The translations under genes were made by a program, and so were the position numbers. Under the pieces are notes generated by a model, which ran no database searches, was not told where the DNA came from, and saw nothing but the letters and a program-made list of their open reading frames with translations. 62,372 nucleotides of DNA, taken from NCBI GenBank assembly GCA_001803205.1, contig MHBE01000054.1, positions 1-62,372 of the forward strand. The letters run 5' to 3'. Source of the DNA: Lentisphaerae bacterium GWF2_38_69. Lineage in GTDB: Bacteria > Verrucomicrobiota > Lentisphaeria > Victivallales > GWF2-38-69. Positions 16,282 to 48,493 of the stretch are shown here, piece after piece; the stretch's first letter is position 1, and each line of letters starts with the position of its first letter.

Positions 16282-17628
16282 ATGAAGCCTACTTATATTG
16301 TTTCAGGTATAATTCTTATCGGAACATCGCTATTTTTTTCTTCCTGCTCTTCCAAAAAGTCTGCTTATTCGGATGACATAATGTATTCTGATAATTATTC
16401 AGCAACCAAACTAAGCTCAGTTAATGCCGTACCTGAGAGTGGAAAAATTCTCACCAGAGACGAAGCGATCAGAATAGCACTGGCTAATAATCCACAAATC
16501 CAGATTGCCAAATTGCAGGCTATCGCAGCCAATGCCCAGTACTATGGAAGTTTCGCTGCTCTTACTCCCGGTGTAAACGCAGGAGCTGGAATAGTAAAAA
16601 GCACTGGAAGCCCTGTTGCTTCTGCTGCAGGAATATCAGGAAGCATGAATGTCTGGAACGGACTCACAAGTCAGATGAATGTGCTTGCTGCTAAATCAAA
16701 TGCTATGTCTGCCGAAGAGATGAACAGGAATGCCAGAAGACTTTTAGCCGAGCAGACCGCATTCATCTATGACTCTATAATTGCAGATAAAGTAAATATT
16801 AAAATTCAGATGGATAATAAGGCTTTCTGGGAAAATGAACTTAAGAAGATTCAGAGAGTGAAGAACCCTGGCAAGAAAGCAATCGCTGATGCTCTTCAGA
16901 TGAAAGTCTATGCTGATATGGCGCACAGCGCAGTTATCAAGAATATTGAAAATTTCAATAACGATAAATTTGCTCTTGCAACAATGATGGGCATGTCTAA
17001 TGCAAAACTCCCTTCAAATACATTGTTTCCCGATGCTCCACACCCTTCTGATGAGCCCAAAGATATGCCTAATGTGAACTCTTATCTCGACCAGGCTGTA
17101 AACCAGAGACCTGACCTTTACTCAGCAAAAGATAATGTAAATGCTGCCAATTATAATCTTTATGCCGCTTATGGAGAACTTTCTCCATCAGTAGATGCAG
17201 GCGTTGCAGCCGCAGCTGCCAATATTAACTCTCAGAATGTAAATTTTACAGCAGCAGGAGCCGCAGCGAATGCGAATTTAAATCCAGTTGCTCCAATAAC
17301 AAATATCGTCAATGCTCAAGCTCAAAAGGATATCGCTAAAGAACAGCTGGTTCAGACTTATACCCAGTCAATGGCAGATGTAAGAACTTCATATAATAAT
17401 CTCGCTTCTGACTATGCGCAGAACAAGATTCTGAGAGCTCAGGAAAGCGATGCATTACAAAGCAGAAATCTTGTTACAGAACGCTACAATGACGGAAAAA
17501 CAAGTATTGCAGACCTTACACAGGCTCAGAACTTTCTGGTCAATACTCAATTGGAGTACTATAAGACTGCTATTGAAATTGAAAAATCGAAAGCTGCTCT
17601 TGACGCCGCAATCGGCATTAGCCAGTAA
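16282..17628 (+). CDS. TolC-like outer membrane efflux lipoprotein
   Basis: The 448-residue protein has a lipoprotein signal (LIGTSLFFSSC, lipidated Cys22) and two similar halves with the outer membrane efflux protein pattern: LTRDEAIRIALANNPQIQIAK at 57-77, and repeated coiled-coil helices with Ala/Asn-rich stretches (AVNQRPDLYSAKDNVNAANY, then the terminal YNDGKTSIADLTQAQNFL). It would form the trimeric outer membrane channel of a tripartite efflux or type I export system. No adaptor or pump sits beside it. An HlyD-type adaptor at 27589 and the three adaptor-like genes at 43139 are the nearest candidates. It converges with the next gene at a distance of 14 bases. Confidence 0.86.
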   Translation: MKPTYIVSGIILIGTSLFFSSCSSKKSAYSDDIMYSDNYSATKLSSVNAVPESGKILTRDEAIRIALANNPQIQIAKLQAIAANAQYYGSFAALTPGVNAGAGIVKSTGSPVASAAGISGSMNVWNGLTSQMNVLAAKSNAMSAEEMNRNARRLLAEQTAFIYDSIIADKVNIKIQMDNKAFWENELKKIQRVKNPGKKAIADALQMKVYADMAHSAVIKNIENFNNDKFALATMMGMSNAKLPSNTLFPDAPHPSDEPKDMPNVNSYLDQAVNQRPDLYSAKDNVNAANYNLYAAYGELSPSVDAGVAAAAANINSQNVNFTAAGAAANANLNPVAPITNIVNAQAQKDIAKEQLVQTYTQSMADVRTSYNNLASDYAQNKILRAQESDALQSRNLVTERYNDGKTSIADLTQAQNFLVNTQLEYYKTAIEIEKSKAALDAAIGISQ

Positions 17629-43138: not shown

Positions 43139-44314
43139 ATGAGGAGAATATTATCTTGTTACTCAGTGGTGCTTTATACCGGTTTGCTCTGTGCGGTTTC
43201 TGCCATGGCAGCAAAAGAGTATGTAGGTACAGTCGTCCCTACAGCTACTTCCACTTATTCTATGTTTACATGCGCGCCTATTATCTATGGCAATATAGGA
43301 TACATCGCCAGACCTGGAGAAATAGCTACTCCTGAGGTCAAAAACTCAAAAGGAGAGATTATCAAGCAAGGCGATTTACTCCTCCAGTTTGATATGCGTT
43401 ACTGGGTGGCTCAATTAGATATTCTAAAAGCTATAATGGATCAGAATAAGGCTGTTGCCGATCTGGATAATATCGACAGCGCCAGATACAAATCTCTGGC
43501 TTCTTCAAATGCTGAAAGCGTTATGGATTATCAGAATATGCAGATAAACTATTTTAATGCTCTTAATGCCTATGGGCAGGCAGTAAGTAATTATGATGCG
43601 ATGCAGGCTCAGGTCGCTGCCTATACAGATATTGCTCCATGCGAGGCTATCGTCACTTCAGTAGCAACTTCTCTTGGACCGATTCCTGGACCAGCTACTG
43701 ATATGACAATTGCTCAGCTCAACCCTATTGGGATTCAAATCAAAATGAGCAGAGATGAAGCAAAATCAATATCCAACAATACTCCAGTTCAAATCATACC
43801 TCTTAATTCAGACACACCTCAGGGGATTATCTACGGAAATACAGTACTTACTGATGACGGAATAGAATTCGTTACGGAAAACTACCCTGTCATCGAAGGC
43901 ACTACACTAATTACTGATCCATCTACTCCTATTTTAAGAAAATGGGGGTTTGTCAAGAAATTCTATATCGACAAAAAACCAGAAGTCCTGGGAATAGCCT
44001 CTTCTTCACTAAATCAAGACGGAGATAAGTACTATGTATGGAGAGCTAAAGGCCAAAAAACAATGCAAACAGATAGAGCAGTCGATCGTTCTTTTCAAAT
44101 TGAAAAAGTCTATGTTGTTCCTTATGACCTCTACCGCCAGACTGAAAACTTTGAGAGATTAGTGGCATTGAAGGAAACGGGTGGATTAGAGTTTTATGAT
44201 CTTGTTCTTTGTACAGCTCCTTCAGTGCTTACAGAAGGCCAGAAAGTAATATACCCTGAAGATGCGTATCTTATGATGCCTGGAGATCAGGTAAAAGTAA
44301 TAGTTGGCAAGTAA
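43139..44314 (+). CDS. Secreted adaptor-like protein 1 of three tandem paralogues
   Basis: The 391-residue protein has a signal peptide (SVVLYTGLLCAVSAMA) and no other membrane segment. It has the outline of an HlyD-type adaptor: a half-lipoyl strand with the GDLLLQFD pattern, an alpha hairpin (RYKSLASSNAESVMDYQNMQ, given in part as AESVMDYQNM), the second half (APCEAIVTSVATSLGP) and a beta domain with LNPIGIQIKMSRDEA. The C-terminus YLMMPGDQVKVIVG is shared with the next two genes. AAGGAG precedes the ATG. It is secreted and would act in the periplasm. The pump it serves is not obvious; the nearby MFS gene is a candidate. Confidence 0.72.
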   Translation: MRRILSCYSVVLYTGLLCAVSAMAAKEYVGTVVPTATSTYSMFTCAPIIYGNIGYIARPGEIATPEVKNSKGEIIKQGDLLLQFDMRYWVAQLDILKAIMDQNKAVADLDNIDSARYKSLASSNAESVMDYQNMQINYFNALNAYGQAVSNYDAMQAQVAAYTDIAPCEAIVTSVATSLGPIPGPATDMTIAQLNPIGIQIKMSRDEAKSISNNTPVQIIPLNSDTPQGIIYGNTVLTDDGIEFVTENYPVIEGTTLITDPSTPILRKWGFVKKFYIDKKPEVLGIASSSLNQDGDKYYVWRAKGQKTMQTDRAVDRSFQIEKVYVVPYDLYRQTENFERLVALKETGGLEFYDLVLCTAPSVLTEGQKVIYPEDAYLMMPGDQVKVIVGK

Positions 44315-44326
44315 AGGAGGTTAATC

Positions 44327-45553
44327 ATGCGTTTGTTTACTCATTTTGGTTTTATTCTGGTACTGATGACGATTTGCTCTTCTGTACTCTTTTCCGCTCA
44401 GGAATATAAAGGAACTGTAGTTTCTATCGGTGATGAACAATATACAACTACGACAGGAGGACAGGATAGAGGATTTATTATCACTCTTGCCAGACTTGGA
44501 TTAATTTGCGTACCAACTGTTTATGCTTCCCTTGATGGAAGCGACATACAAGGGAAAGACATCCTTTATCCAGGAACCCCTCTGATAAATGGTTATAACC
44601 TGACATGGGTAGGTGAATATCTCGGGCAAGAGATTTCAGTAAGTGCAGATAAACAACTTGTAAGTTTGGATTATGATAACTATGTAAGATACAAAAAGCT
44701 CTACAATGACAACGCTGTAAGTCAGGAAGCCTTTGAAGATATGGAAAATGATTTGGCTGAAGGAACAGGAGGCTATAGAACAGCTGTTGATATCCTCAAA
44801 GAAGATTATCAGCAAAATATCATGATGGTAACAAGAGCTCGCGCAGAAGGGATAGTAAGCAAAGTAACTCAGTCCGCAGGAAGTGACTTGGGAGGAGCTA
44901 CGGCAATCGAATTCGTTTGGCTAAATCCCATTGGAATACAGGTAAAAATGCCAGAAGAGATATATAGGAATTTTTCTCCGGAAACTCCTATAAAGATATA
45001 TATAAAAGGAATAGACAAACCTTTCGGGATATACAACGGTTATGCTATAACCAGGAAGGATTCAATGATATTCCTTACTAAAAACTTTCCTGTAATTGAC
45101 AAGAATACAATTCTTGAAGACAATGGAGTTCCTGTGCTTAGAGAATGGCAGGGTGTTTGCAACTTTAATATTTATCCATCAGCTGAAACAATCCTCGCTG
45201 TACCGGATGGAGCTATTCAAAAAGATGAAAAAGGAAGCTTTGTATGGAGAGCAAAAGGGCAGAAGTTAATGCAGATGGATAAAGGGATTGATACTCAATT
45301 CCAGATTGAAAAAGTCTATGTCACTTCTGCTGATATGATTCGTTATCAAACAGGGTATACGAAGATAGTCGCGCTGAAGGACTCTGGAAAACTCGAACTA
45401 AATGACCTTGTGCTCAATAATCCTCCTGATACAAAATTCGTCACTCTGAAAGATAGAGATATGGTCTATTATCCTCCGCAAGCTTATCTGATGATGCCTG
45501 GAGATGAAGTAAAAGTAGTAATAGGCGACGGATCTATTGAGAACACTAAGTGA
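44327..45553 (+). CDS. Secreted adaptor-like protein 2 of three tandem paralogues
   Basis: The 408-residue protein has a signal peptide (FILVLMTICSSVLFSAQ) and matches the first paralogue along its length: RYKKLYNDNAVSQEAFEDM for the hairpin start, RAEGIVSKVTQSAG for the returning lipoyl half, WLNPIGIQVKMPEE for the beta domain, and the tail YLMMPGDEVKVVIG. The middle hairpin is shorter than in the first paralogue. GGAGG lies about 8 bases before the ATG, 12 bases after the first gene. The three genes arose by tandem duplication and have diverged strongly, which speaks for different partners. Confidence 0.72.
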   Translation: MRLFTHFGFILVLMTICSSVLFSAQEYKGTVVSIGDEQYTTTTGGQDRGFIITLARLGLICVPTVYASLDGSDIQGKDILYPGTPLINGYNLTWVGEYLGQEISVSADKQLVSLDYDNYVRYKKLYNDNAVSQEAFEDMENDLAEGTGGYRTAVDILKEDYQQNIMMVTRARAEGIVSKVTQSAGSDLGGATAIEFVWLNPIGIQVKMPEEIYRNFSPETPIKIYIKGIDKPFGIYNGYAITRKDSMIFLTKNFPVIDKNTILEDNGVPVLREWQGVCNFNIYPSAETILAVPDGAIQKDEKGSFVWRAKGQKLMQMDKGIDTQFQIEKVYVTSADMIRYQTGYTKIVALKDSGKLELNDLVLNNPPDTKFVTLKDRDMVYYPPQAYLMMPGDEVKVVIGDGSIENTK

Positions 45554-45583
45554 AGTTAACATTTTAAATCAACAGGAGAGTAT

Positions 45584-46750
45584 ATGTTTAAAAATATTTC
45601 TAAGTTATTCCTTACTGGCATCCTTTCGTCTTGTATATCTCTTTCATTATTTGCCGAAACTGAACTAACGGGAACTGTGACTCCTTTAAATGTAAGTACC
45701 CGCGCGGCAGGAACAGACACGGCCTATCCAGGTGTTCTTAATAAAGTTCAAAGAGAGGGGACTATCTGTTATCCTTACATAACAAGGATAAATAGTGATA
45801 TTGTCGTAGAACCGGGGCAATTCTTGTATCAGTATGATATGCCATGGTGGAATGCTTATATGCAGCAGGCAAAGGATACTTATGTTCAGAATGTTGTGCA
45901 GTTAATGATCGCTAAAGACAATGTAGTACGATATAAAAAACTAGTTTCGACCAATGCTGAAAGCGAAGAAACATTTGAACAATATCTTTCAACTTATGCA
46001 AATGCTCTGGGAAACTATGAAAATGCCAAGGCTACCATTCCATTTTATTACGAGGCGCTTCGTGAAGCTACATGCAGACCCACCTTTGAAGGAATAGTTA
46101 CTAAGACTTATCAGTCAGGAGGCACTCAGGTAGGGCAGCCTATCCTTGACTTTACTCAGCTCAATCCAATAGGCATAAATGTAAAAATGCCCAGGAGCGA
46201 TGCAAGGAAACTTTCCGGCAAAGCTGTGAAGATATACCCTTTGGATACTAAAAAGCCTCAGGGCATTATTTACGGAAGGACTATGCTGACTGATGACGGT
46301 GTCCAGTTTTCTACTGAAAATTACCCTCATTTTACTATTGATGATCCTGAATGCAAAATAAAAATAGTAAGACAATGCTTGCCTGTTATTAACTTTAACA
46401 TTAGAGAGATTGGTAAAGTAAATCTCAGTGTTCCGGCAGATGCAATTGAAAAAGATAATAAAGGTTATTATGTATGGTTGGCCAATGACCAGCAGGTGCT
46501 GAATCCTGATAAAGGTTTGGCTAAATCCTTTATCATTGAAAAAACTTATATTAAGCCCGGAAAACTTTTCAGAAGATCAAGCGGATGCTCTGATTATCAG
46601 TCCCTTGATGACGCTGGAAAGCTCAAACTTAATGATATTGTAGTTTTTGATCACCCTCAGGATTTGAATGATGGAGAAAAAGTCTTCTTCCCTACGAACA
46701 GATATATCTTAATGCCAGGAGATGAGGTAAAGGTAGTTATCCTCGATTAA
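45584..46750 (+). CDS. Secreted adaptor-like protein 3 of three tandem paralogues
   Basis: The 388-residue protein has a signal peptide (LFLTGILSSCISLSLFAE) and the same layout: hairpin RYKKLVSTNAESEETFEQY, returning half RPTFEGIVTKTYQSGG, beta domain QLNPIGINVKMPRSDA and the closing YILMPGDEVKVVIL. AAC AGGAG lies before the ATG, and the gene follows paralogue 2 after 30 bases. A terminator 28 bases past the stop ends the three-gene unit. A lipobox-like SC in the signal could be read as lipidation, but the cleavage after FAE is more likely. Confidence 0.72.
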   Translation: MFKNISKLFLTGILSSCISLSLFAETELTGTVTPLNVSTRAAGTDTAYPGVLNKVQREGTICYPYITRINSDIVVEPGQFLYQYDMPWWNAYMQQAKDTYVQNVVQLMIAKDNVVRYKKLVSTNAESEETFEQYLSTYANALGNYENAKATIPFYYEALREATCRPTFEGIVTKTYQSGGTQVGQPILDFTQLNPIGINVKMPRSDARKLSGKAVKIYPLDTKKPQGIIYGRTMLTDDGVQFSTENYPHFTIDDPECKIKIVRQCLPVINFNIREIGKVNLSVPADAIEKDNKGYYVWLANDQQVLNPDKGLAKSFIIEKTYIKPGKLFRRSSGCSDYQSLDDAGKLKLNDIVVFDHPQDLNDGEKVFFPTNRYILMPGDEVKVVILD

Positions 46751-46777: not shown

Positions 46778-46806
46778 AACTCCCTATAATTGGAGTTAGT
46801 TTTTTA
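46778..46806 (+). terminator. Terminator of the triple adaptor operon
   Basis: AACTCC and GGAGTT form a 6-bp stem around an 8-base loop (46778-46797), followed by AGTTTTTTATAT. It is 28 bases past the third adaptor stop. The start of the next small gene lies immediately after the T-run, so that gene must use read-through or its own promoter. Confidence 0.7.
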
Positions 46807-46821
46807 TATATGAGGCAAGAA

Positions 46822-47244
46822 ATGTTTAATGGTTCTCTAGAAACTATTGATTTATCACATAAGAATCTAAAGGCTCTTAATGGCTGCCCTGAAAGCGTAG
46901 AAGGCGACTTTCTTTGCAACAGCAACAGCCTGATAAACCTCAAAGGGAATCCCAGAAATATTAAAGGAAATTTCTATTGCCATAGAAATAGGCTCACCTC
47001 ACTCGAAGGAGCGCCAGAAAAAGTGGGAAGGGTTTTTCATTGCGACCATAACCAACTTACTTCACTAGAAGGATCTCCAAGAATCATTGGAGGTGATTTT
47101 TACTGCTCTAAAAATGAGCTTATTTCGTTAAATGGCTCTCCAAAGGAAGTTGGCGGCAATTTTATTTGCTGGGGCAATTACAGGAATTTCTCTGAAAATG
47201 AAATTAGAGCCATTTGCAAGGTTAAAGGTAAAATCATTACTTAA
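46822..47244 (+). CDS. Small repeat protein (degenerate leucine-rich-like repeats)
   Basis: The protein is about 140 residues of five tandem ~20-residue repeats with the pattern GxFxCxxNxLtsLeGxP (for example FYCHRNRLTSLEGAP and FHCDHNQLTSLEGSP). This is a parallel-beta, LRR-like design seen in many bacterial and phage proteins. There is no signal peptide. The Cys at each repeat is conserved. I start at ATG 46822 because GAGG lies 6 bases before it; the first ATG at 46810 has none. It probably binds protein and no partner is known. It lies between the adaptor operon and the MFS transporter. Confidence 0.75.
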   Translation: MFNGSLETIDLSHKNLKALNGCPESVEGDFLCNSNSLINLKGNPRNIKGNFYCHRNRLTSLEGAPEKVGRVFHCDHNQLTSLEGSPRIIGGDFYCSKNELISLNGSPKEVGGNFICWGNYRNFSENEIRAICKVKGKIIT

Positions 47245-47314: not shown

Positions 47315-48493
47315 ATGAATTTCAAAGAAAAAAATAACTTGATAAAACTGACAATTATGTCATATGGAATGACATGTATAACCGGAATAGCAGTAATCTT
47401 ACCTTTCATTATTCAACAGCCGGCACAAGAATATTTTAAATCCAGCGCCGCATATACTGGTTTTGTCTTCTCGTTTTTTATGGGTGGAATGTTGATTTTT
47501 CAGATACTGAACGGCTTTATCATCAAGTTCCTGAAAATCAGAGCTCAGATTTACCTGACAGCTGTAGTTTACATTATCTGCTCTCTTCTGATGTTTATGA
47601 TTCATAGTATAGTCTTTCTTATACCTATTCTTATTGTTTTAGGGCTCTGTTTTGGTCTTATAATAACAATTCCTAATTTCATTTTGGTTCACGCTTTTGA
47701 AGGGAAAGAGAGATCAACGAAATTAAATCGCGGAGACTTTATGTTCAGCGTAGGATCTCTAGTCTATCCAATGGTAGCGTCCGTAATGATTTCTCGCCAC
47801 TATTCTTGGCAGGCGGTATATCTATCTGTATTCGTACTGATACTAATTGTTGTTATTCTCTGCTACAAATCGGTAATTCCTGATGTAGATGCCACAGAAA
47901 CTGAAGGTGTTGCCAAATTTTCGAAATGGAATATTAATGTGTATATGGTAGGATTTGCCATTTTCTTCTATTTCATGTCATATGTCGGTTATACTTACTG
48001 GGTAGCACAATACCTGACAGATAATCTAAAGATGAGTCCCACAGCAGCTGATTTTGGTGTCAGTCTCTTTTGGATTATGTATGCAATAGGCTGCTTTATA
48101 TCCAGCTATGCAGTAAAAGTCATTGCAGTAAATAAGTACATAATTCTTTCGGCTATAGTTTCATTTATAGCATATTTCGTAATTTACTATTCTACTGGAG
48201 TAATGATGATGTATATCTCTATATCCATCTTGGGACTTGGATGCGCTACGGTTTATTCATCATCAATTTCATATGGCACCTTACTTGTTGAGCATCCATC
48301 TCCAAGAATCATCTCATTTTTCATTGCGTCATCTGGAATCGGAACTTATTTAGCAGAAGTTTATTCCAGCTGGGTTCAGGCTAAATATGGCCTTTCGGCT
48401 GTTACAATTATCAGCGCAATGATGATTCTCCTGACTATAATTCTTATGATAATAGTTGCTTTCACTGACAAGCAGGCAAGAAAATCTATTTAA
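47315..48493 (+). CDS. Major facilitator transporter, TsgA-like
   Basis: The 392-residue protein has 12 hydrophobic segments. LNRGDFMFSVGSLVYP (about 147-162) between segments 4 and 5 and SYVGYTYWVAQYL around segment 7 resemble TsgA-type MFS proteins. AAGGAG is 5 bases before the ATG. The substrate is not known from sequence; the gene lies between a small repeat protein and a thiamine-diphosphate decarboxylase, so an organic acid or a product of that enzyme is possible. A single stem-like inverted repeat and the decarboxylase ribosome site follow its stop. Confidence 0.82.
   Translation: MNFKEKNNLIKLTIMSYGMTCITGIAVILPFIIQQPAQEYFKSSAAYTGFVFSFFMGGMLIFQILNGFIIKFLKIRAQIYLTAVVYIICSLLMFMIHSIVFLIPILIVLGLCFGLIITIPNFILVHAFEGKERSTKLNRGDFMFSVGSLVYPMVASVMISRHYSWQAVYLSVFVLILIVVILCYKSVIPDVDATETEGVAKFSKWNINVYMVGFAIFFYFMSYVGYTYWVAQYLTDNLKMSPTAADFGVSLFWIMYAIGCFISSYAVKVIAVNKYIILSAIVSFIAYFVIYYSTGVMMMYISISILGLGCATVYSSSISYGTLLVEHPSPRIISFFIASSGIGTYLAEVYSSWVQAKYGLSAVTIISAMMILLTIILMIIVAFTDKQARKSI

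Follow-up and report, generated by a model that had tools for sequence, protein, structure and literature searches.

A tandem trio of adaptor-like paralogues without a linked pump belongs to an apparently lineage-specific family

Introduction

Periplasmic adaptors normally act as the collar that joins an inner-membrane drug pump to an exit channel, and to our knowledge no role outside pump complexes has so far been understood for them. In the triclosan pump TriABC-OpmH of Pseudomonas aeruginosa, two different adaptors, TriA and TriB, share 36% identity and are both required, forming a 3:(3+3):3 complex (PMC13328181). MacA and EmrA carry a transmembrane-helix anchor and are linked to MacB or EmrB (PMC13328181), and the protein BACEGG_01895 (4L8J) has been termed an orphan adaptor (PMC8277102).

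The three genes described here, A, B and C, lie in a window of 62,372 nucleotides, the whole stretch of DNA that was analysed. They resemble TriA and TriB, which act as a hetero-assembly, in being tandem, diverged adaptors. TriABC differs in having two adaptors rather than three and in encoding its RND pump, TriC, within the operon, whereas the presumed operon of the trio contains no pump. BACEGG_01895 likewise has the adaptor fold and a pump partner that is not established, but it is a single protein. The RND adaptors of the AcrA/MexA type (TIGR01730) share with A, B and C an RLS hairpin, a lipoyl domain, a barrel and a membrane-proximal-like domain; A, B and C differ from them in having no evident lipid anchor and no pump, in scoring under the family cut-off, and in seemingly placing the last barrel strand after the membrane-proximal-like domain. 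MacA and EmrA have their overall fold in common with A but, unlike the trio with its lack of an evident anchor or linked pump, are membrane-anchored and pump-linked, and in the EmrAB/MFS tripartite system the MFS pump is part of the operon, whereas the MFS gene near the trio lies outside. Among the papers searched, none dealt with three tandem adaptors or with pump-less orphan adaptors.

Results

Three tandem paralogues

The trio and the site that follows it are as follows.

43139..44314, + strand: adaptor A, 391 aa (ORF call and translation)
44327..45553, + strand: adaptor B, 408 aa (ORF call and translation)
45584..46750, + strand: adaptor C, 388 aa (ORF call and translation)
46778..46797, + strand: terminator-like stem-loop with T run, closing the presumed tricistronic unit

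An earlier note on this DNA had described three strongly diverged paralogues of 391, 408 and 388 residues with a common layout and tail, and the ORFs and alignments agree with this description. The proteins are alignable end to end at 34–36% pairwise identity, the three-way alignment contains many invariant columns and a common tail, Y-x-x-MPGD-x-VKV, and gene A as a query in its own genome retrieves B and C at about E 1e-60, a relatedness that, judged from these alignments, is far above chance. The genes are separated by 12 nt (A–B) and 30 nt (B–C), and a ribosome site of the GGAG or AGGAG type precedes each start.

Sec-like signal peptides are apparent by inspection at the N termini of A, B and C. 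The note had further claimed that none of the three has a membrane anchor; this stands for A and B, in which a motif search found no lipobox, but C has a lipobox-like LSSC at residues 14–17 in the same kind of search and is not certain to be anchorless. The single terminator claimed for the end of the trio corresponds to a terminator-like stem-loop with a T-tail, but terminator-like sites in the region are no more numerous than in shuffled sequence.

Adaptor fold and RLS hairpin tip

Pfam gave no meaningful match for A, B or C, whereas the RND-linked adaptors of the same genome do match Pfam. Against the NCBIfam model TIGR01730 (RND_mfp), A, B and C score 54.6, 28 and 65 bits, all under the curated cut-off of 94.9, and the family relatives L013, L036 and L038 exceed it (104.4, 109.2 and 96.4 bits). 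A family profile built from twelve paralogues of this genome and searched against the PDB matched the TriA-TriB fusion 6vej best (E 4e-22), with AcrA (E 1.5e-18), MexA and MacA also found, and hhalign comparison of the family with adaptors that are RND-linked, from this genome and relatives, gave 99.7%. The hairpin region of the profile is colinear with that of AcrA and nearly gap-free over its whole length, whereas EmrA is matched only in part.

The AlphaFold2 model of A (P0001; five-row alignment, mean pLDDT 78.7, pTM 0.59) folds first into a barrel strand and one lipoyl half, followed by an α-hairpin (residues 87–161, with helices 87–120 and 125–161), the other lipoyl half, the barrel, a membrane-proximal-like domain (about 260–373) and a final strand (384–389). 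Foldseek with this model places TMexC, AcrA, MexA and MacA on top (E 1e-11 to 1e-9), and its structural match to MacA and EmrA has Z of 9–12. The model of B (P0002) is of low confidence (pLDDT 63.0) and gives the same structural matches; its layout is that of A, with a divergent and poorly modelled first lipoyl half (residues 62–96). C has the layout of A as judged by alignment. The adaptor fold of A, B and C is thus well supported by predicted structures and profiles that agree, and a different fold, which the earlier note had named as grounds for giving up its reading, was not seen. Descent from RND-type membrane-fusion proteins is the best explanation.

An RLS motif at the tip of the adaptor hairpin is the signature of docking to TolC. 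The pattern R-x3-L-x6-S occurs in all three proteins and sits at the hairpin turn.

43484..43519, + strand: RLS motif of A, R116-L120-S127, at the hairpin tip
44687..44722, + strand: RLS motif of B, R121-L125-S132 (motif search and model)
45929..45964, + strand: RLS motif of C, R116-L120-S127 (motif search)

In shuffled sequences, the motif arises near that position by chance in about 0.2–0.3% per protein, the figure for A being about 0.3%. The B protein of a second triplet in this genome (on C38) no longer has the RLS pattern. Neither of the two OEP proteins of the genome showed a VGL-like motif in a simple pattern search, a result that is not interpretable.

A seemingly reversed domain order

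In AcrA, the barrel closes before the membrane-proximal domain begins; in A and B, the two seem to have changed places, so that the barrel-closing strand comes last. Full-length adaptors align with the models of A and B up to residue 372–383, and adaptors solved without the membrane-proximal domain align up to residue 391–403, ending at the last barrel strand. The membrane-proximal domain of TriA matches residues 260–373 of A and 265–385 of B. From these aligned ranges and the sequence, the membrane-proximal-like domain appears to precede the barrel-closing strand in both predicted structures; hhalign alone is also compatible with the ordinary domain order. In longer relatives (about 460–550 aa; e.g. 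L013, L038 and L039), an N-terminal stretch lies ahead of the first strand of the barrel and another membrane-proximal-like domain follows the last; proteins of the window type have neither of these extra parts. Because the N-terminal strand is absent and the membrane-proximal-like domain is seemingly inserted before the barrel-closing strand, docking to a pump in the classic manner is doubtful.

Neighbourhood of the trio, and pumps and channels of the genome

The small gene upstream of the trio matches cupins weakly, and downstream a small LRR-like ORF is followed by an MFS gene (47315–48493), the nearest transporter. The LRR-like ORF (46810–47244, 144 aa) begins directly past the terminator-like site and consists of repeated units of the pattern LTSLEGxPxxVxGxFxC. 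No pump lies within 500 bp of the trio, and no homologue of RND, ABC or OEP reference proteins was found within 6 kb, in agreement with the earlier statement that an adjacent pump or channel is absent.

The genome encodes 13 RND pump genes and one fragment, each with an adjacent adaptor-like gene (two tandem pumps share one), as well as a clear MacB-type pump with its own adjacent adaptor. With an adaptor-like gene beside each of these pumps, no vacant pump is visible. There are only two OEP (TolC-like) genes, one of which lies in the window.

16282..17628, + strand: TolC-like outer-membrane factor (PF02321, E 1.7e-29); possible common exit duct, unlinked to the trio

With two OEP genes for 13 RND pump genes, channel sharing in trans must already be the rule. 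The TolC-like gene, proposed earlier as a partner, is therefore a possible but not a specific one, being one of only two.

A family with strong matches in one order only

The genome (3.12 Mb, 66 contigs) contains about 13 genes of the family, some clustered and others solitary: besides the trio, C38 carries the second triplet, C40 carries a third and, at another site, a pair, and several genes stand alone. Family members are held by 25 of the 137 genomes of the order (E 1e-15). When the comparison was extended to 387 genomes of the phylum, all strong matches still fell within the order, the three matches outside it being weak (about 1e-13) and at the level of ordinary adaptors. A scan of a genome collection returned only two loci; the two named relatives are MAGs, and one is a Victivallales bacterium. 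By sequence comparison, the trio is no single oddity, since the lineage-specific family to which it belongs forms several clusters.

About 50 family members in some 40 neighbourhoods were viewed, and none stands beside a pump. For one member, an RND pump with another adaptor next to it is found at a distance of 2.8 kb. By contrast, nearly all RND-linked adaptors in the same genome stand within 50 bp of their pump. Since pump linkage is absent throughout the members viewed, a linked pump that was merely lost at this locus, the other ground on which the earlier reading was to be given up, is ruled against. The common partner that neighbourhood analysis was hoped to reveal did not emerge, as no neighbour is conserved between genera among the roughly 50 members. 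Solitary relatives are common.

Several loci show features of their own. In the third triplet (L010:9439-12557, on C40) the middle gene is broken: query residues 21–181 and 335–390 are present, with about 150 codons missing between the remnants and a change of frame. A long-type member at L012:8532-9937 (C8) is divided into two ORFs of 133 and 329 aa. L056:3039-4490 (C13:28039-29490) encodes a further odd adaptor-like protein, secreted and of 483 aa, with seemingly two tandem lipoyl-hairpin units in pump-free surroundings. At L057:1-6726 (C16), a large protein whose N terminus carries an LEPR-type motif (MYQLEERILFDG) is followed by a secreted adaptor-like ORF of 269 aa and then by a 499-aa ORF; this group may represent another kind of export or surface system. 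In one genus (L065, L066 and L067, from three genomes), a gene divergent from a long-type member and about 70 bp from it is RND-like; it reads by inspection as a SecD/SecF fusion, so that as a pump partner it is a false lead, and we take the arrangement as synteny.

Block duplication of A-B-C

Between the window and C38 triplets, the first, second and third genes share 51%, 45% and 46% identity, respectively, compared with at most 37% between different positions. In a tree, the genes of each position pair one to one (support 100/99), and all triplet genes fall in one clade (100/99), which also includes two paired genes of a related genus (G002). A, B and C had thus already diverged before the block was copied. 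Third codon positions diverge most between the two triplets, a pattern like that of genes under selection at the protein level, and all three genes have been retained in the same order in both copies. This colinear block duplication with all three genes kept is the best argument that A, B and C function together, as they probably do, and it makes the hetero-oligomer suggested in the earlier note plausible.

Discussion

The reading that we tentatively prefer, with a probability of roughly 0.4, is that A, B and C are a co-functioning set of soluble adaptors that docks on a TolC-like channel and uses a pump encoded elsewhere. The three proteins would assemble as one mixed ring or tube, the RLS hairpin tips would dock on one of the two TolC-like channels of the genome, and an inner-membrane pump in trans would carry the barrel and membrane-proximal-like domains, with the trio acting on it as a substitute or extra collar. 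As a speculation, if the ring were a hexamer in the order A-B-C-A-B-C, its symmetry would be twofold, a better match to a dimeric pump than to the trimer of an RND pump. The sharing of channels in trans in this genome favours a pump in trans. Weighing against the reading are the absence of a vacant pump, the lack of a conserved neighbour, the doubt over classic docking and the loss of the RLS pattern from B of the C38 triplet. Against co-assembly, tandem duplication by itself also leaves paralogues side by side, and the solitary relatives indicate that a hetero-oligomer is unnecessary for the function of the family.

A somewhat unlikely alternative dispenses with the energised pump: the proteins could dock on TolC-like channels as a periplasmic collar or spacer, or form an envelope bridge, and serve as a gate, plug or scaffold. 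The family members with no linked pump, set against true adaptors that nearly all adjoin one, are consistent with this notion, as are a genome in which every pump is already equipped, the lack of an evident anchor combined with a retained RLS tip, and the missing N-terminal strand and relocated membrane-proximal-like domain. The barrel and membrane-proximal-like parts are still conserved, however, and would be useless to a mere plug.

We regard it as unlikely that A, B and C are independent paralogues, forming separate homohexamers that each have a partner of their own in trans, with the tandem arrangement as a by-product of duplication. The frequency of solitary relatives and the scattering of family genes in clusters and singles, as amplification predicts, favour this explanation, but it is at odds with the tight gaps between the genes and with an A-B-C order and identity that survive block duplication with strong support.

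It seems quite improbable that the trio forms a hetero-oligomeric soluble tube on TolC-like channels that is dedicated to no pump, as an order-specific, pump-free gating or envelope-spanning device; if this were true, adaptors would have been turned into a stand-alone device specific to one bacterial order. That A, B and C are EmrAB-like adaptors of the MFS transporter, a partner also raised in the earlier note, is very improbable: the gene lies 565 bp downstream on the same strand, but the terminator-like site and the LRR-like ORF intervene, no MFS gene stands beside the C38 and C40 triplets or relatives save one 3 kb from the member at L030, and the hairpin follows AcrA rather than EmrA over its full length.

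What is apparently new is a family of pump-less, apparently soluble, lineage-specific adaptors with block-duplicated triplets. If soluble adaptors with a TolC-docking tip have multiplied without pumps and been copied in threes, as in the co-functioning set that we prefer, adaptors would be reusable or shareable components, and the trio would offer a natural three-part adaptor ring for testing adaptor stoichiometry and specificity.
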